A program made the translations under genes and the position numbers. From NCBI RefSeq assembly GCF_014352875.1, contig NZ_CP060695.1, forward strand, positions 1 through 64,000: a stretch of DNA of 64,000 bases, given 5' to 3'. The notes beneath the pieces were generated by a model that was given only the letters and a program-made list of their open reading frames with translations, ran no database searches and was not told the origin of the DNA. This DNA comes from Polaribacter pectinis (lineage in GTDB: Bacteria; Bacteroidota; Bacteroidia; Flavobacteriales; Flavobacteriaceae). Below, in pieces: positions 10,799 to 56,975 of the stretch (positions are counted from its first letter, which is position 1; the number at the start of each line of letters is the position of its first letter).

Positions 10799-11285
10799 AA
10801 ACTTTCTCTCCTTTTTTTAGCCATTTACTCCAACCCTTACTAAAAGTATGTACTTTTTCAGTTTTGTTTCCTAAAGTGTCTACTACTTGAAAATCGGCAT
10901 TTTTCCATTCAAAAATACCTCCATATAAATTGTAAACATTTGTGTAACCTTCTTCTATTAATTTATGCGCAACAGTTTCTGAACGAATTCCCAAAGAACA
11001 ATACACAACTATTTTGGCGTTCTTGTCTTCTGGTAATTTTGATAAGGTTTCTTTTAGTTTAAAATGATCATAACCAACACGAATTGCATCTTTTAAATGA
11101 CTGACTTTAAACTCTTTTTCTTCCCTAGCGTCTAATAAAATAGCTTTCGTTTTTGGTAAAGCCAAAGTTTCTACAGACATATAAGGAACATTTCTTTTGT
11201 TCCATTTATTCAATAATTTATCTAATTTCTTTTGAGCAGAAACAGTTGAGGTAACTACTAATAAAAGGATGAGTATTTTTTTCAT
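10791..11285 (-). CDS. Exported rhodanese-domain protein
   Basis: The start MKKILILLLVV gives an export signal ending near VSAQ; an upstream in-frame ATG at 11312 would place nine extra residues before the signal and overlap the previous gene. The rhodanese domain covers about residues 45-145 and has the active-site loop CSLGIRS, with the catalytic Cys present. It is probably periplasmic. Rhodaneses move sulfur or handle thiophilic oxyanions, and also occur in arsenic gene clusters. The 164-aa length fits a single domain with a short C-terminal tail. It overlaps the downstream DUF2064 gene and follows the metallophosphoesterase after 10 bases. Confidence 0.85.
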   Translation of the reverse strand: MKKILILLLVVTSTVSAQKKLDKLLNKWNKRNVPYMSVETLALPKTKAILLDAREEKEFKVSHLKDAIRVGYDHFKLKETLSKLPEDKNAKIVVYCSLGIRSETVAHKLIEEGYTNVYNLYGGIFEWKNADFQVVDTLGNKTEKVHTFSKGWSKWLKKGEKVYE

Positions 11286-43313: not shown

Positions 43314-43763
43314 TTATGATGCTAAATGCTCTTCTAACTTTAATGAGTTAATAGCAGCTTGAATTTTTAATTTTTGCTCATCTAACATTTTTCTTGTTGA
43401 AGGTGCAAAAGATTCTTCTTTTAAGATTTCTTCATACTCTTCGAAACTTGCTTTTTCTCCTCTTAAGGCTTCCTCTAAAATCGCTTCTTCGTCGTTAGAA
43501 CTAAATAAAGATTTTAAAGTCATCCAATTTCTGTGCATTGTTCCTTTAAAAGAACCATCGTCTTCTGGAATTTGCCCATAAGACAAGATTTCTGTTCTTA
43601 AATCTTTCGCAAACATACTTCTTTCAGAAGCTCTGTTTTTAAAGAAAATTTTAAGTTTTGCACTTTCTACATTTTCAGCAGAATTTAAGTATCCTTTTTC
43701 TGCATCGTAGTTCTTTTCTAATAATTCGTTTAATTTGTTCGAAATTTTTTCTGTGTACTTCAT
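43314..43763 (-). CDS. PA2169/DUF2383 four-helix-bundle protein, copy 1
   Basis: A 149-aa ferritin-like four-helix protein: KISNKLNELLEKNYDAEKGYLNSAENVESAKLK, ERSMFAKDLRTEIL, HRNWMTLKSLFSSNDEEAILEEALRGEKASFEEYEE. The Glu residues at helix positions fit DUF2383, a group with possible di-metal sites but no proven function, and often tied to stress. A close paralogue lies at 56180-56629. Its promoter has the same two-box plus -7 design found before the stress genes at 53-57 kb, so it is likely a member of the same regulon. It is a single-gene unit with its own terminator. Confidence 0.85.
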   Translation of the reverse strand: MKYTEKISNKLNELLEKNYDAEKGYLNSAENVESAKLKIFFKNRASERSMFAKDLRTEILSYGQIPEDDGSFKGTMHRNWMTLKSLFSSNDEEAILEEALRGEKASFEEYEEILKEESFAPSTRKMLDEQKLKIQAAINSLKLEEHLAS

Positions 43764-52452: not shown

Positions 52453-53296
52453 AGTTTTAAAAGCAGGTTTTTATACCTCAATACAAGATAGAGGTAGAGT
52501 TGGTTTTGCGCAAAATGGCGTTCCTGTTTCTGGGGTTATGGATAGTTATGCTGCAGACGTAGCAAATAGTATTTTAAATAATTCTTTAGAAGACGCACTT
52601 TTAGAAATTACTTTTGGTGGTTGTAAATTAGAATTTTTAGTAGAAACTATTATTTGTGTTTCTGGTGGCGATTTTTCAGCAACAATAAATAACAAGCCAA
52701 TTCAACTAAATTCAAGAATAAAAATCAATACAAAAGACGTTTTAAGTTTTGGAAAAATAAATTTTGGAGCAAGATGTTACTTGGCAGTAAAAGATGGTTT
52801 TTTAACGAAAAAAGTTTTAGGAAGTAGAAGTTTTTATCAAAATATAACAAACCAAATCATTATAAAGAAAGGAGATATTTTACCAATTACGACTTTTAAA
52901 AGCGGTTTAGAAACATCAAATTCAGCAATAAAAATAAAAGAAACACATTTTAATTCAGAAGATATATATTGTTACGAAGGACCAGAATTTGAGTTGTTAA
53001 AAGATCATCAAAAAGAACAATTATTAGAAAATATTTTTACAATTTCTAACGATAATAATAGAATGGGAATTCGTTTAAATGAGTTAATTGAGAACAACAT
53101 TCCTTCAATTTTAACATCAGCAGTTTTGCCAGGTACAGTTCAATTAACACCTTCTGGGAAATTAATTGTTTTAATGCGAGATTGCCAAGTTACTGGTGGT
53201 TACCCAAGAGTTCTACAACTCACAGGATATGCTATTAATAAATTAGCTCAAAAAACAACACATCAGAAACTAAAATTTATAATAAAAAGTATTTGA
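52445..53296 (+). CDS. pxpC: 5-oxoprolinase subunit PxpC (KipA family)
   Basis: A 283-aa biotin-dependent carboxyltransferase-like protein of the KipA type. It begins MIRVLKAGFYTSIQDRGRVGFAQNGVPVSGVMDSYA and has LEITFGGCKLEF near 55, CYLAVKDGF near 108, NRMGIRL near 200, and SAVLPGTVQLTPSGKLIVLMRDCQVTGGYPRV near 218. All are usual for PxpC. It is the last gene of the four-gene operon. Its stop codon TGA (53294-53296) lies inside the first of two regulatory boxes for the next, separately controlled, operon. Confidence 0.95.
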   Translation: MIRVLKAGFYTSIQDRGRVGFAQNGVPVSGVMDSYAADVANSILNNSLEDALLEITFGGCKLEFLVETIICVSGGDFSATINNKPIQLNSRIKINTKDVLSFGKINFGARCYLAVKDGFLTKKVLGSRSFYQNITNQIIIKKGDILPITTFKSGLETSNSAIKIKETHFNSEDIYCYEGPEFELLKDHQKEQLLENIFTISNDNNRMGIRLNELIENNIPSILTSAVLPGTVQLTPSGKLIVLMRDCQVTGGYPRVLQLTGYAINKLAQKTTHQKLKFIIKSI

Positions 53297-53349
53297 GTCA
53301 AGATTTGTTTTTTTTGAGTCAAGTACTATTTCATAATAAGCTTATATTT
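53291..53349 (+). promoter_or_regulatory. Two-box promoter of the YtxH operon (best copy of shared design)
   Basis: TTTGAGTCAA occurs twice, exactly, at 53291-53300 and 53312-53321, starting 21 bp apart. After 20 bases comes TATATTTG (53342-53349), a perfect -7 box. No TTTG -33 box lies at the usual distance, which suits activator-dependent transcription. Box 1 overlaps the pxpC stop. GTAC-rich DNA (53349-53372) lies near the transcription start. Confidence 0.75.
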
Positions 53350-53405
53350 GTACTGTACTTAATTTAGTACTTTAGAATTTAAGTTTAATCACTAAAAATA
53401 AAGAG

Positions 53406-53738
53406 ATGAGTAATAGCAGTAACACAGTAGTAGGATTATTAGCAGGAACAGTAATAGGAGCAACTTTAGGAATTTTATTTGCACCTGATAAAGGTATAAA
53501 CACAAGACAAAGAATTTCTGATGAAGCTTTAGCAGCAAAAGATAAAATTGCAGAAAGAGCAGTAGAATTAAAAGATCAAGTTTCTTCTACAATGGTAGAT
53601 AAAAAAGAAAGTTTAGACACACAATTAGAGAGTGTAGTTTCTAATGTAAGCCATAAGGCAGAAGATGTAATTACTACTTTAGAGAAAAAATTGAAAGAAT
53701 TAAAAGATAAAAATAAAAAATTACAAAAAACAGTCTAA
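53406..53738 (+). CDS. YtxH domain protein
   Basis: A 110-aa protein. One hydrophobic, Gly-rich membrane helix at about 9-29 (VGLLAGTVIGATLGILFAPDKG) is the YtxH signature. A long charged helical part follows, with AKDKIAERAVELKDQVSS, ending in a coiled coil rich in Lys (TTLEKKLKELKDKNKKLQK). Family members are linked to general stress. It leads a three-gene operon with a holin-like membrane protein (3 bases on) and a 66-aa protein, under the two-box promoter. Confidence 0.9.
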   Translation: MSNSSNTVVGLLAGTVIGATLGILFAPDKGINTRQRISDEALAAKDKIAERAVELKDQVSSTMVDKKESLDTQLESVVSNVSHKAEDVITTLEKKLKELKDKNKKLQKTV

Positions 53739-53741
53739 TAC

Positions 53742-54089
53742 ATGAGCATATTCGAAAATTTTAGTAATTCTGCAGACAAAGGTACAGATGCAAGTAAAGA
53801 ATTTGTTTCTAAATCTTATGAATATACAAAGTTAAAGGCGTTTCAACTAACAACTTTATCTATTGCTATGTTCGCTAAACTATTAGTAATAGGTGGTTTG
53901 GTGTCTTTGGGATTTATTTTCGTAGCTTTTTCTGGAGCAATAGCTTTGGGTGAATATTTAGACAATATGGCTTTAGGGTATTTGTGCGTAGGGTTATGTA
54001 TAATAATTTTTTCTTTGTTGCTTTTGGCTTTTAGGAAGTCTTTCGATAGAAAAGTTGTTTCTAAAATGTCCAAGAAATTTTTTAATTAA
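53742..54089 (+). CDS. Phage-holin-superfamily-like membrane protein (stress-linked)
   Basis: A 115-aa protein with two long hydrophobic segments, about 45-70 (SIAMFAKLLVIGGLVSLGFIFVAF) and 77-103 (MALGYLCVGLCIIIFSLLLLAF), and charged ends. The layout fits the phage_holin_3_6 group of small chromosomal proteins, often next to YtxH. No phage genes are nearby, so it is an envelope protein, not a lysis holin. Its start follows the YtxH stop by 3 bases and the next gene is 23 bases on. Confidence 0.75.
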   Translation: MSIFENFSNSADKGTDASKEFVSKSYEYTKLKAFQLTTLSIAMFAKLLVIGGLVSLGFIFVAFSGAIALGEYLDNMALGYLCVGLCIIIFSLLLLAFRKSFDRKVVSKMSKKFFN

Positions 54090-54112
54090 TCAGTTTTAAG
54101 GAAATTAAAAAG

Positions 54113-54313
54113 ATGAAAAATTATCAAAACTTTGAAGAAATAGATAGAGACTTAAAAAAACTATCATTAGAAAGAAAAATAGCTTTAGAAGAACTTAAAA
54201 TTGTAAAAAGCGATTTTGAAGAAAGCTTAAGGCCATTGAGTATGTTGCAAAGCGTTTTTAAATTTGCAAGTAAATACGGAGTTTTGCTATTGGTAAAAAA
54301 AATATTTAAATAA
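54113..54313 (+). CDS. Small stress-operon protein, unknown function
   Basis: A 66-aa protein starting MKNYQNFEEIDRDLKKLSLERKIALEELKIVK. The first 45 residues are a charged helix of coiled-coil type, and the end is a short amphipathic or hydrophobic stretch (KYGVLLLVKKIFK). It lies in the YtxH operon and is closed by a terminator, so it is a real gene. It could attach to the membrane by its tail. No family recognised. Confidence 0.75.
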   Translation: MKNYQNFEEIDRDLKKLSLERKIALEELKIVKSDFEESLRPLSMLQSVFKFASKYGVLLLVKKIFK

Positions 54314-54363
54314 AATTGTAGCGCTGTTTTTAGAAACAGTGTTATAATGGTTGGTTGATTAAT

Positions 54364-54398
54364 AGCCTTGGTATTTTATAATATCAAGGCTTTTTTTT
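54364..54398. terminator. Terminator between the YtxH operon and the AraC gene
   Basis: GCCTTGGTAT (54364-54373) pairs with ATATCAAGGC (54381-54390) with one G-T pair, followed by eight T. It lies 50 bases past the 66-aa gene and 6 bases before the end of the convergent AraC gene. Confidence 0.85.
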
Positions 54399-54403
54399 GT
54401 TTT

Positions 54404-55429
54404 TTAAGAAACTACCAACGCTTTCTTTTTAAATTCATTTGGACTTATGTCGTACTTTTCTTTGAATATTTTAGAAAAATAACTTCTGCTGCTAAAACCA
54501 ATACTATATACAATTTGAGAAACATTTAAATCTGTATTTTTTAACAAATCTCTTGCTGACTCTAAACGAATATGTCTTATATATTCAGTAACAGTTCTGT
54601 TATATAAAAACCTAAAACCATCTTGTAATTTAGCTTGTGTTAATCCAGATTCTGTAGAAAGTTTTTCTAATGTGTATTCTTTAGCAGGATTTTTCACGAT
54701 ACTATTTCCAAATTTACGAACCGTTTTTAACTCACTTTTAATTAAAGAAGTTGGTAACGGAACACCCTCTAAAAGCCTATTGTGTTGTTGTATGTGTACA
54801 GATAATATTTCGTAAACTTTTGCCTCAACTTTAAGAATACGCAACATGCCTTTACCCTTAACTTTTTTTAGTCTTTTAATAAGATCTGCCATTTTTAGAT
54901 TCATTGTTCCGTAATTGGCAAATCTGTAATCATGATCAGTATCAACAAAAACTTCGTGTAATTTTTTGTTTAAAGTAGACACATTTGTAGTCCTTTTCTT
55001 TAAAAATTTCTTTCTTACAATTTCAATAAGGTTTATTTCTAAAGGTTCATTTTTAGGAAAATGCAAATAGTTATATCCACTAGTTTTATTTGTGAATATT
55101 AAAGATTGAAATTGCTCTACTTTATGTTCTGTTTTTTCAACACCAAATCTATGTTTTATGTTACCTACTGAAGGATACAAGAAACGTAAAGGATTGTATT
55201 CTGGTACAGCTTGTATTTTAAAAATAAATTCTTTGTGGAGTGTAATATCAAAATCTAATAAATTTACTCCCCAATCAAAAGGAATAAACCTCATTTTTCC
55301 TGTAGCATATTCATTGTTAATTTCAAGAATGCATTCACTCCAATTACTGGTTATTGTTCCTCCAATATTCTCTCTAATTTGTTCTAATAAATCTTTATCA
55401 CTATCAGCAACTATTTCAATTTCTATCAT
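54404..55429 (-). CDS. AraC-family transcriptional regulator (candidate regulator of the stress island)
   Basis: A 341-aa regulator. The C-terminal AraC DNA-binding domain (about 240-338) has two helix-turn-helix parts: YTLEKLSTESGLTQAKLQDGFRFL, with YIRHIRLESARDLLK between, and NVSQIVYSIGFSSRSYFSKIFKEKYDISPNEFKKK. The N-terminal 220 residues look like a beta-rich sensing domain followed by helices. I do not know its ligand. It sits between the YtxH operon and the hemerythrin operon, both with the two-box promoter. AraC proteins bind two direct half-sites about two turns apart, which matches the 21-bp spacing. Control by it is inference. Confidence 0.9.
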   Translation of the reverse strand: MIEIEIVADSDKDLLEQIRENIGGTITSNWSECILEINNEYATGKMRFIPFDWGVNLLDFDITLHKEFIFKIQAVPEYNPLRFLYPSVGNIKHRFGVEKTEHKVEQFQSLIFTNKTSGYNYLHFPKNEPLEINLIEIVRKKFLKKRTTNVSTLNKKLHEVFVDTDHDYRFANYGTMNLKMADLIKRLKKVKGKGMLRILKVEAKVYEILSVHIQQHNRLLEGVPLPTSLIKSELKTVRKFGNSIVKNPAKEYTLEKLSTESGLTQAKLQDGFRFLYNRTVTEYIRHIRLESARDLLKNTDLNVSQIVYSIGFSSRSYFSKIFKEKYDISPNEFKKKALVVS

Positions 55430-55500
55430 GGAGGAAAATTATATTAATAAACAAAAAATAAGCTATTAAACTAAAAGTAAATATAGTTTAAAAATTATTA

Positions 55501-55559
55501 TATAAGTTAAGAATTCTACCTATTGAGCAAAATAAGATGTTCATCTATTAGTAATTTTG
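55501..55559 (+). promoter_or_regulatory. Two-box promoter of the hemerythrin operon (shared design)
   Basis: TATAAGTTAA (55501-55510) and ATTGAGCAAA (55522-55531), 21 bp apart, each match TTTGAGTCAA at 7 of 10 positions. After exactly 20 bases comes TAATTTTG (55552-55559), a perfect -7 box. The ATG follows at 55584. The register is identical to that of the YtxH and DUF1328 promoters. Confidence 0.6.
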
Positions 55560-55583
55560 AGTGTAAATATTAAATATAAAGAA

Positions 55584-56018
55584 ATGAACATTTTTGAAGA
55601 AATAAGAAAAGATCATGATAAACAAAGAAGTTTATTAAGCAAACTTGTAGAAACTTCTGGTGATACAGAAAAAAGAAATACACTCTTTAAAGAATTAAAA
55701 AACGAGTTAGAAGTTCATGCAAATGCAGAAGAAAGACACTTTTACAAACCTTTGATTAGTAATGACATGATGCAAGAAAAAGCGAGGCATGGTATTGCAG
55801 AGCATCATGAAATAGATGAATTAATAGAAAAATTAGAAGAAACAGGTTATGACTCTTCTGCTTGGTTAAAAATAGCAAAGCAATTGCAAGAGAAAGTAGA
55901 ACATCATTTAGAAGATGAAGAGCATAAGTTTTTTCAGTTAGCAGGAAAAGTATTTAATGAAAGCCAGAAAGAAACTTTGGCAAAAAGTTATACAAAACAC
56001 ATGAATGATAATTTATAA
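55584..56018 (+). CDS. Hemerythrin-like (HHE domain) protein
   Basis: A 144-aa helical protein from MNIFEEIRKDHDKQRSLLSKLV; an upstream GTG frame lies in the promoter region and is rejected. Likely di-iron ligands appear in RKDHDKQ, HANAEERHFYKPL, AEHHEIDELIEKL and VEHHLEDEEHKFF, the usual hemerythrin spacing. Such proteins bind oxygen, NO or iron, and act in stress sensing or protection. It is followed after 161 bases by a PA2169-family gene, perhaps in the same transcript, and its promoter matches the stress set. Confidence 0.9.
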   Translation: MNIFEEIRKDHDKQRSLLSKLVETSGDTEKRNTLFKELKNELEVHANAEERHFYKPLISNDMMQEKARHGIAEHHEIDELIEKLEETGYDSSAWLKIAKQLQEKVEHHLEDEEHKFFQLAGKVFNESQKETLAKSYTKHMNDNL

Positions 56019-56179
56019 TAATAATGCAAATCAAAGAAGTAAAACTACTAGTCTTATGAATTAAAGAAAAGGGTTTACTGTTAACAGTATTTAAATTTTA
56101 AACAAGTTACTTAAAATTAAAGATGTAAATCGTTTGACATCTATAAAACAAATAAACGTTCACTTAAAATAGTAATAAA

Positions 56180-56629
56180 ATGAGTACTTACACAGAAGAA
56201 GTAGGAGAGAAACTAAACGAACTTTTAGAAAAAACCTATGATGCAGAAAAAGGATTTAAAAAAGCTGCTGATAACATAGAGAATCAAGCGTTAAAAAATT
56301 ATTTTAAGTCCAAAGCTCAAGAAAGATATTCTTTTGGTCATGAACTAAAAGAAGAAATTAGAACTTATAATCAAGAAATAGATAAAGGAGGAAGCGTTGC
56401 AGGTTCTGCACACAGAGCTTGGATGGATATAAAAGCATTGTTCTCTTTAGATGATGAAGAGTCTATGTTAGAAGAAGCAATTAGAGGAGAAAAAACAGCC
56501 GTAAAAGAATATGAAGAAGTAATTAGTGAAACTAGTTTACCTTCTAGTACAAAATCTTTACTAGAGTCTCAAAAAAATAAAATTGAGAACGGCTTATATA
56601 ATATTAAATCTTTAGAGGATATTCACTAG
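56180..56629 (+). CDS. PA2169/DUF2383 four-helix-bundle protein, copy 2
   Basis: A 149-aa paralogue of 43314-43763, same length, with EEVGEKLNELLEKTYDAEKGFKKAADNIENQALKNYF, ERYSFGHELKEEI, HRAWMDIKALFSLDDEESMLEEAIRGEKTAVKEYEEV. The conserved Glu and His residues suggest a metal-binding ferritin-like bundle; no activity is known. No clear two-box promoter lies directly before it, so it may be read from the hemerythrin promoter. A terminator follows. Confidence 0.87.
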   Translation: MSTYTEEVGEKLNELLEKTYDAEKGFKKAADNIENQALKNYFKSKAQERYSFGHELKEEIRTYNQEIDKGGSVAGSAHRAWMDIKALFSLDDEESMLEEAIRGEKTAVKEYEEVISETSLPSSTKSLLESQKNKIENGLYNIKSLEDIH

Positions 56630-56654
56630 AGATTTTTTGGTTGGTTGATTAATG

Positions 56655-56684
56655 AAAAGCTGTCTTTTAAGGCAGCTTTTTTAT
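56655..56684 (+). terminator. Terminator of the second PA2169 gene
   Basis: AAAAGCTGTC (56655-56664) pairs with GGCAGCTTTT (56671-56680), with one G-T pair, then T. Confidence 0.85.
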
Positions 56685-56697
56685 GTAAATCACTTTA

Positions 56698-56756
56698 TTT
56701 GAGTCAAAAAGTAATGTATACGAGTTAAATAGATTTCTATAAAGTCTTTAAATTTG
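56698..56756 (+). promoter_or_regulatory. Two-box promoter of the DUF1328 gene (shared design)
   Basis: TTTGAGTCAA (56698-56707) is an exact copy of the YtxH box; 21 bp on is TACGAGTTAA (56719-56728), 7 of 10 matches; exactly 20 bases later is TAAATTTG (56749-56756), a perfect -7 box. The ATG is at 56814. Confidence 0.7.
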
Positions 56757-56813: not shown

Positions 56814-56975
56814 ATGTTACGTTGGACAATTACATTTATAATAATCGCATTAATAGCAGGGGTTTTAGGATTTGGAGGAATTGCAGGAGCTGCAGCCGGA
56901 ATTGCTAAAATTATCTTTGTTGTATTTATTATTCTTTTCTTATTATCACTTATCAGTGGAAGAAAAAAAATATAG
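56814..56975 (+). CDS. DUF1328 small membrane protein (YtjA-like)
   Basis: A 53-aa protein, [20 protein letters not shown], then [15 protein letters not shown] and a second hydrophobic stretch ending ISGRKKI. The [14 protein letters not shown] core is the DUF1328 mark. It has two transmembrane segments and a short basic tail. Members are general stress or envelope proteins, with no known activity. It has its own two-box promoter and a terminator, so it forms a single-gene unit of the stress island. Confidence 0.92.

Follow-up and report, generated by a model that had tools for sequence, protein, structure and literature searches.

A shared promoter layout with 21-bp direct repeats and a candidate AraC-family activator of general-stress-type genes in Flavobacteriaceae

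The first 64,000 nucleotides of the Polaribacter pectinis contig NZ_CP060695.1 (positions 1–64,000, the whole stretch analysed here, hereafter the window) contain four promoters built to a single plan, and a gene for an AraC-family regulator that lies among them. Each promoter consists of two ten-base boxes whose starts lie 21 bp apart, followed after exactly 20 bases by a −7 box (box-N11-box-N20-TAnnTTTG, N being any base). They precede a three-gene operon headed by YtxH, an operon of hemerythrin-domain and DUF2383 proteins, a gene for a DUF1328 membrane protein and, on the minus strand, a second DUF2383 gene (Table 1). An initial annotation of this DNA had proposed the common geometry, and reading the window sequence directly bears it out in 4/4 promoters. 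For the YtxH promoter the layout and the two exact boxes stand, while the start given as 53291 was one base early (the correct position is 53292); the DUF1328 promoter, placed at 56698 with an exact first box, indeed has TTTGAGTCAA as box 1. The hemerythrin site (site 2) and the minus-strand site (site 4) have degenerate boxes. Site 2 is divergent from the AraC gene, 71 bp from its start.

The product of this gene has the features that define the AraC/XylS family, namely a domain of some 100 residues at the C terminus that carries two helix-turn-helix (HTH) motifs (PF12833, E 4.5e-19; PF00165, E 2.1e-9), and its profile matches the SoxS, XylR, AraC and MarA chains. No Pfam family was assigned to the N-terminal domain. 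An AlphaFold2 model (mean predicted local distance difference test score, pLDDT, 85.5) has CsvR, ToxT and Rns as its best PDB matches in Foldseek, at 13–15% identity. The closest named relatives are from Polaribacter (70–72%). In a quick maximum-likelihood tree made from 84 proteins of the AraC subfamily, the clade of the window protein (hereafter the window clade) comprises 32 rows. All three genes of the YtxH operon were found again in 19/25 window-clade neighbourhoods. The P. pectinis genome also has a second AraC paralogue, at 2742326–2743276 on the plus strand, which is 37% identical to the window protein, and in other loci (L169, L176, L012, L172, L222) two to four paralogues of the subfamily stand in tandem next to genes of the regulon, and some of these paralogues have different recognition helices.

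I searched the window for TTGAGTnAA-N12-TTGAGTnAA-N20-TAnnTTTG with at most 3 mismatches, and obtained 3 matches where 0.01 were expected from 100 shuffles. Single boxes show no enrichment there, with 6 matches at no more than 1 mismatch against 13.7 expected. The improbable thing is the box pair with the −7 box at fixed spacing, not the single box. In the whole genome, the pattern TNNGAGTNAA-N11-TNNGAGTNAA-N20-TANNTTTG with up to 3 mismatches has 8 matches, 5 of them outside the window (at 1304411, 1306118, 1278478, 3077588 and 384202), against 1 for a reversed control. Site 4 has 4 mismatches, and so falls outside both the window and the whole-genome counts.

A profile of 62 sites (R1), six of them from this genome, puts the four window sites at ranks 1, 3, 5 and 6 of the 3.47-Mb genome; rank 3 belongs to the minus-strand site, which was not used in training. 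R1 finds ten places at E<0.004, including one before a zinc-type alcohol dehydrogenase (906727). Three more follow at up to E 0.017 (Table 1), and among weaker matches chance ones are expected (95 own-genome matches at E≤10). Two of the weaker places are nonetheless backed by homologous site-bearing genes in relatives: 293803–293947, before a 108-amino-acid family (L230, L231), and 901240, before a gene that is BrkB/YihY-like by sequence (L227).

Table 1. Sites, genes and further elements; positions are those of the P. pectinis genome unless a locus or another genome is named.
Feature	Position	Strand	Description	R1 E-value
Site 1	53292–53350	+	TTTGAGTCAA-N11-TTTGAGTCAA-N20-TATATTTG; YtxH operon promoter; box 1 53292–53301, box 2 53313–53322, −7 box TATATTTG 53343–53350	1.2e-6 (best in genome; training site)
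YtxH operon	53406–54313	+	three genes	
YtxH	53406–53738	+	PF12732	
Membrane protein, YtxH operon	53742–54089	+	no family above cut-off	
66-amino-acid protein, YtxH operon	54113–54313	+	near DUF6327, below cut-off	
AraC-family regulator	54404–55429	−	341 amino acids; HTH_18 at residues 257–335; cupin-like N-terminal domain in model	
Site 2	55501–55559	+	TATAAGTTAA-N11-ATTGAGCAAA-N20-TAATTTTG; hemerythrin-DUF2383 operon promoter; box 1 55501–55510, box 2 55522–55531, −7 box TAATTTTG 55552–55559	1.2e-4 (training site)
Hemerythrin-domain protein	55584–56018	+	PF01814	
DUF2383 protein	56180–56629	+	PF09537	
Site 3	56698–56756	+	TTTGAGTCAA-N11-TACGAGTTAA-N20-TAAATTTG; DUF1328 gene promoter; box 1 56698–56707, box 2 56719–56728, −7 box TAAATTTG 56749–56756	4.1e-5 (training site)
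DUF1328 membrane protein	56814–56975	+	53 amino acids; PF07043, E 1.1e-14	
Site 4	43892–43834	−	AATGAGTCAA-N11-TTTGCACTAA-N20-TAAATTTG; second DUF2383 gene promoter; box 1 43892–43883, box 2 43871–43862, −7 box TAAATTTG 43841–43834	4.1e-6 (outside training set)
Second DUF2383 (PA2169-type) protein	43314–43763	−	149 amino acids; E 5.7e-40	
Site	1304411		before Dps/ferritin-like gene, then MscS	
Site	1306118		before secreted protein	
Site	1278478		before DUF5670	
Site	3077588		before lipoprotein-like protein	
Site	384202	−	before another MscS	
Site	778746		before NAD(P)-binding protein	0.006
Site	1662387		before DUF1206	0.012
Site	2854837		before 67-amino-acid membrane protein	0.017
Element TGGTTGGTT[A/G] with terminator, window	54348–54398; 56638–56682			
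Element TGGTTGGTT[A/G] with terminator, other loci			L173, L230, L226, L175, L178, L016, L026–L028	
Small HTH protein, receiver and kinase cassette	L031 5809–9426; L228 9265–12871		also in relatives; kinase of 860 amino acids, CHASE3/PAS	
Sites in genomes lacking the AraC subfamily	G044:C6:252633 (L297); G132:C2:401040 (L295); G132:C5:21889 (L296)			
Box pair in G087	L202, about base 893–970 of the strand	−	before DUF2383 gene	

The layout is conserved in relatives. Spacings are written here as the distance between box starts and the gap to the −7 box, so that 21/20 is the window layout. A weight matrix made from eight sites of the P. pectinis genome only was run on 31 AraC-relative loci (628 kb), three Firmicutes loci that matched in the HTH region only (L039–L041) having been dropped from 34. 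At a score of at least 16 it gave 88 matches at 21/20, against 30 at 21/19, 18 at 21/22, 17 at 21/25 and 0–14 at each of the other 140 spacings; with a threshold of 15 there were 103 matches, in 29/31 loci. Raised counts along the 21-bp row are to be expected, because a pair of good boxes comes close to the threshold even with no −7 box. A matrix refined to 38 sites found 68 matches in 33 non-training loci of 20 kb (660 kb), against 0–8 at 99 other spacings. Applied to 27 further loci of the genus (4 kb each, 108 kb), it found 56 matches at 21/20, 25 at 21/19, 17 at 21/21, 14 at 21/23, 9 at 21/26 and 0–5 at each of the remaining 31 spacings, and a site is present in 26/27 of these loci. Four loci duplicate training loci exactly: L225, L383 and L385, which were excluded from the 33- and 27-locus counts, and the DUF2383 locus L125. 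With L225, L383 and L385 included, the counts become 73 matches in 34 loci and 59 in 29. The test loci were chosen for AraC or target genes, and therefore show conservation of the geometry, not its specificity. Direct half-sites 21 bp apart that are conserved before orthologous targets are what an AraC-family class II activator calls for. The initial annotation had named two outcomes that would count against a regulon, a motif pair frequent at random positions and a lack of conservation before orthologous genes; the spacing controls and the recurrence of sites in relatives dispose of both. The regulon is real.

In 57 distinct sites of the genus, which include two loci overlapping with training loci, the information is concentrated in the boxes, with a mean of 1.21 bits per column in box 1, 0.96 in box 2 and 1.27 in the −7 box, against 0.44 in the N11 and 0.14 in the N20 stretch. 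The consensus of the boxes is WWWG(A/C)GT(T/C)AA. A mirror symmetry in TTGAGTCAA suggested a dimer on each box; I rejected this, as the family-wide consensus is not symmetric. The −7 box of the sites is the sigmaA consensus TAnnTTTG, which in Flavobacterium psychrophilum lies at −12 to −5 (PMC9723704); carrying over that start would put box 1 at about −63 to −54 and box 2 at −42 to −33. The earlier remark that no clear −33 box is seen holds: TTG occurs in 0/57 sites at each offset from 17 to 24 bases upstream of TAnnTTTG, and in about 4% at offset 16. Box 2, which ends 20 bases before TAnnTTTG, thus adjoins the −33/−35 region in promoters that have no −33 box of their own.

The sites accompany the AraC gene. 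In the window clade, 32/32 rows have a site scoring at least 16 within about 10 kb; 23 of the 32 are training sequence, and the remaining 9/9 also have one. Over the whole tree, the count is 74/84. Strong sites (best R1 E<1e-3) are present in 9/10 genomes of the window clade and 9/10 of a second, Cellulophaga-type clade, or, among non-training genomes, in 2/3 and 3/3. Two AraC clades, which were picked for having no nearby site, have strong genome-wide sites in 0/6 genomes; they differ in the first recognition helix. The site persists beside AraC even as the divergent gene that bears it changes, being one for hemerythrin, DUF2383, DUF1328, a lipoprotein or an outer-membrane-like protein. No other recognisable transcription factor was seen by eye among the 45 commonest open reading frame families of 25 window-clade neighbourhoods.

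I then compared 148 other genomes of the family, scoring at most 14 candidates per genome and counting as AraC-positive those with a best E<1e-40, so that G022 (9e-32) and G041 (4e-28) are AraC-negative. In counts that ignore phylogeny, a strong site was found in 21/37 AraC-positive against 3/111 AraC-negative genomes (p 1e-12), and in 7/21 against 3/111 once 16 training genomes are removed (p 9e-5). The own-genome-only pattern gave 16/37 against 12/111 (p 5e-5), and its reversed control 5/37 against 13/111 (p 0.48). Matches of the own-genome pattern to TATGCGTAAATATGATTC (G008, G071, G072, G110) were kept in the genome counts; as sites I rejected them, since by eye they look like one conserved coding stretch, which also scores in L009 within a reading frame resembling a membrane pyrophosphatase. 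The AraC-negative genus genome G131 has no R1 site at E≤0.01.

The box sequence itself also varies with the regulator. Position 7 is C in 67% of first and 73% of second boxes beside an AraC subclade of the genus with 53–55% identity (15 sites), against 7% and 10% beside the subclade with 68–84% (42 sites). This difference would point to AraC, and it is only suggestive because the recognition helices hardly differ between the subclades. AraC-family regulators of Bacteroides, Bacillales and Enterococcus use direct repeats of the same 21-bp period (PMC3870299). The initial annotation had drawn the AraC link as an inference. I still infer it, now with the backing of clade adjacency, co-occurrence over the 148 genomes, these published repeats and the lack of another visible regulator.

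The target genes were described at the outset as of small envelope or general-stress type. This was right (Pfam), and the set widens with the other targets of the P. pectinis genome, which include Dps-MscS, another MscS, DUF5670, the alcohol dehydrogenase and exported proteins, and with those of relatives. There the exact spacing recurs before CsbD, YtxH, DUF1328, DUF892 and DJ-1/PfpI genes, and further site-bearing genes encode a pyridoxamine-oxidase-like protein, Ysc84, a nitroreductase, DUF326, BrkB, a PRC-barrel protein and a weak ArsC match. Genes of the CsbD, YtxH, DUF1328, Dps, MscS, DUF5670, DUF892 and DJ-1/PfpI types belong to sigmaB and RpoS regulons, and the target set is general-stress-like. 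R1 at E≤1e-3 matches 3/247 genomes sampled from the class, all in the own family, and an AraC orthologue (E<1e-100) is present in 32/97 sampled genomes of the genus, that of P. pectinis included and some of them incomplete.

Two further elements were seen near the sites. The sequence TGGTTGGTT[A/G] with an intrinsic terminator closes both window operons, and 9/15 of its copies in long loci follow a site at a distance of 3–70 bases, two of the nine sites scoring only about 11. I considered it as a small RNA of the regulon and rejected this, as a covariance model matches 144/149 family genomes at E≤0.05, and most inspected loci are in AraC-negative genomes or behind unrelated genes. Rfam scans for the element gave no family above the gathering score and three matches below it; one scan returned two tRNAs only, and nothing was found up to E 1 in the window stretch. 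In Aequorivita-type loci (L035, L036 and L042, minus strand, near 11107–11121; L069, plus strand, 1363), a site immediately downstream of the AraC gene faces into the 3′ end of that gene, and is followed by a short stretch and a terminator-like hairpin; a small antisense RNA is possible there.

I propose that the AraC-family protein encoded at 54404–55429 is a class II activator that directly runs a general-stress-type regulon of Flavobacteriaceae, a reading drawn from sequence comparison to which I give a probability of roughly 0.7. The protein would bind as two subunits to the two direct half-sites whose starts lie 21 bp apart, and the proximal subunit would occupy the place of the −33 element and recruit RNA polymerase, as in class II activation. 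A proximal subunit standing at the −33 position would account both for the constant 20-base gap and for the lack of a −33 box. The N-terminal cupin-like domain may sense a small ligand, and stress would be the signal.

Several observations weigh against this proposal. Good sites (E 1.6e-4 and 2.1e-4) precede homologues of regulon targets in genomes G044 and G132, which nevertheless lack the AraC subfamily with all candidates scored, having HTH-region matches only (best E 2e-17); a third AraC-negative genome with a strong site, G019, has a partial match. Conversely, a strong site is absent from 16/37 AraC-positive genomes. Upstream regions of DUF2383 genes score at least 8 in 16/55 genes of AraC-positive and 0/33 of AraC-negative genomes, a threshold set after seeing the gap, with weak DUF2383 matches left out and one of the 16 (L125) being training sequence; at threshold 12 the counts are 12/55 and 0/33, and the rank test is not significant (p 0.083). 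For YtxH the corresponding counts at 12 or more are 3/16 and 0/14 (rank p 0.56), and the YtxH copy that belongs to the regulon is frequently not the top match in a genome. The AraC-negative genome G087 has a 21-bp box pair before a DUF2383 gene, the −7 box lying 38 bases on instead of 20. Few sites precede AraC genes themselves (7/86 within 500 bases on the same strand, 2/86 within 60), and Foldseek template-modelling scores to full-length AraC proteins are low (0.25–0.30 on the query). In addition, another cassette with an AraC-type protein, a receiver and a kinase adjoins some of the regulons, and LytTR boxes look similar. As a separate observation, 2 of the 3 sites in G044 and G132 precede the outer-membrane-like family that adjoins AraC in L393–L400.

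These observations bear on several other explanations. The boxes might be bound by a LytTR-type response regulator akin to AgrA. LytTR proteins recognize 9-bp direct repeats with a spacer of 12–13 bp, hence a period of 21–22 bp, so that the 21-bp period of the sites fits; their consensus resembles columns 3–11 of the boxes, a partial fit in which box position 4 is mostly G where LytTR has A or C, and the P. pectinis genome holds at least one LytTR-like gene (L315). Against this, two homologue queries over 82 long loci (1.69 Mb) returned only two response regulators, L302 and L240 (PF04397), in unrelated places, so that no LytTR regulator was linked to the sites in these loci, and the distribution of sites tracks the AraC clades; I consider LytTR binding unlikely. 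It is quite improbable, too, that regulation falls to the small AraC-type HTH protein (about 180–190 amino acids) of the Cellulophaga-type cassette, with the 341-amino-acid AraC a neighbour or partner. In 17 long loci (the Cellulophaga-type clade and the neighbours L178 and L187) the single-domain receiver is present in 15, the CHASE3/PAS histidine kinase in 14 and the HTH protein in 13, and in those loci the cassette may provide either the regulator or its signal input. The receiver and the small HTH protein are, however, present in 0/32 window-clade AraC neighbourhoods, which do have sites; in the window-clade genome G097 they adjoin a DUF2383 gene, L121, that lacks a site (score −5.4), and the recognition helices of the small protein are, by eye, unlike those of the 341-amino-acid protein.

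A regulator common to these genomes and unlinked to the sites could also bind them, with AraC adjacency reflecting a clustering of stress genes. The sites of G044 and G132 and the box pair of G087 speak for it, whereas the co-occurrence with AraC, the dependence of sites on the AraC clade, and an AraC-site neighbourhood that persists while its target genes differ speak against it, which leaves it with a small likelihood. That single boxes are no commoner than expected might suggest that the layout arose by chance or as a side effect of AT-rich sequence; this is refuted by the spacing controls, as by the excess of the full layout in the window, and its likelihood is negligible.

Direct activation by the AraC-family protein is thus the reading I favour. 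No settled account is known of how Bacteroidota, which have neither sigmaB nor RpoS for the purpose, coordinate their response to general stress. A wider proposal is more tentative, and I would put it at somewhat under even odds: in Flavobacteriaceae with this AraC clade, the general stress response may be run with no alternative sigma factor, an AraC activator with a lipid- or metabolite-sensing cupin-like domain replacing sigmaB or RpoS, and in the Cellulophaga-type lineage this accessory system may be wired to the adjoining kinase, single-domain receiver and small AraC-type protein. The candidate regulator, an exact operator (WWWG(A/C)GT(T/C)AA in a 21-bp repeat, N20, TAnnTTTG) and about 10–15 candidate targets in one genome make the proposal directly testable, and the patchy presence of the regulator within one genus provides a natural control. 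The initial annotation knew of no described regulon of this form in Flavobacteriia, and a literature search likewise found no description of it, most subscription journals being outside its reach.

The closest parallel in geometry is AraC itself, whose I1-I2 half-sites are direct and 21 bp apart, the proximal one next to the −35/−33 region. The half-sites of RhaR in Bacteroides, Bacillales and Enterococcus are likewise direct and 21 bp apart (PMC3870299), and the double-HTH DNA-binding domain is common to these activators and the window protein. The AraC and RhaR systems each serve one catabolic pathway, whereas here a scattered set of stress genes is involved, with another box sequence and an N-terminal domain outside any Pfam family. 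In the predicted model, the protein shares the combination of an N-terminal cupin-like and a C-terminal double-HTH domain with ToxT, Rns and CsvR, whose targets are unrelated to this regulon; fatty-acid binding by ToxT and Rns is stated in the titles of some of the matched entries. LytTR (AgrA-type) operators also have direct repeats with a period of about 21 bp and a similar half-site; here no conserved LytTR gene lies beside the sites. In the kind of genes controlled, typical stress-protection genes by Pfam, the regulon resembles those of sigmaB in Bacillus and RpoS in Escherichia coli. These depend on an alternative sigma factor, whereas the promoters described here combine a sigmaA-type −7 box with an upstream operator.

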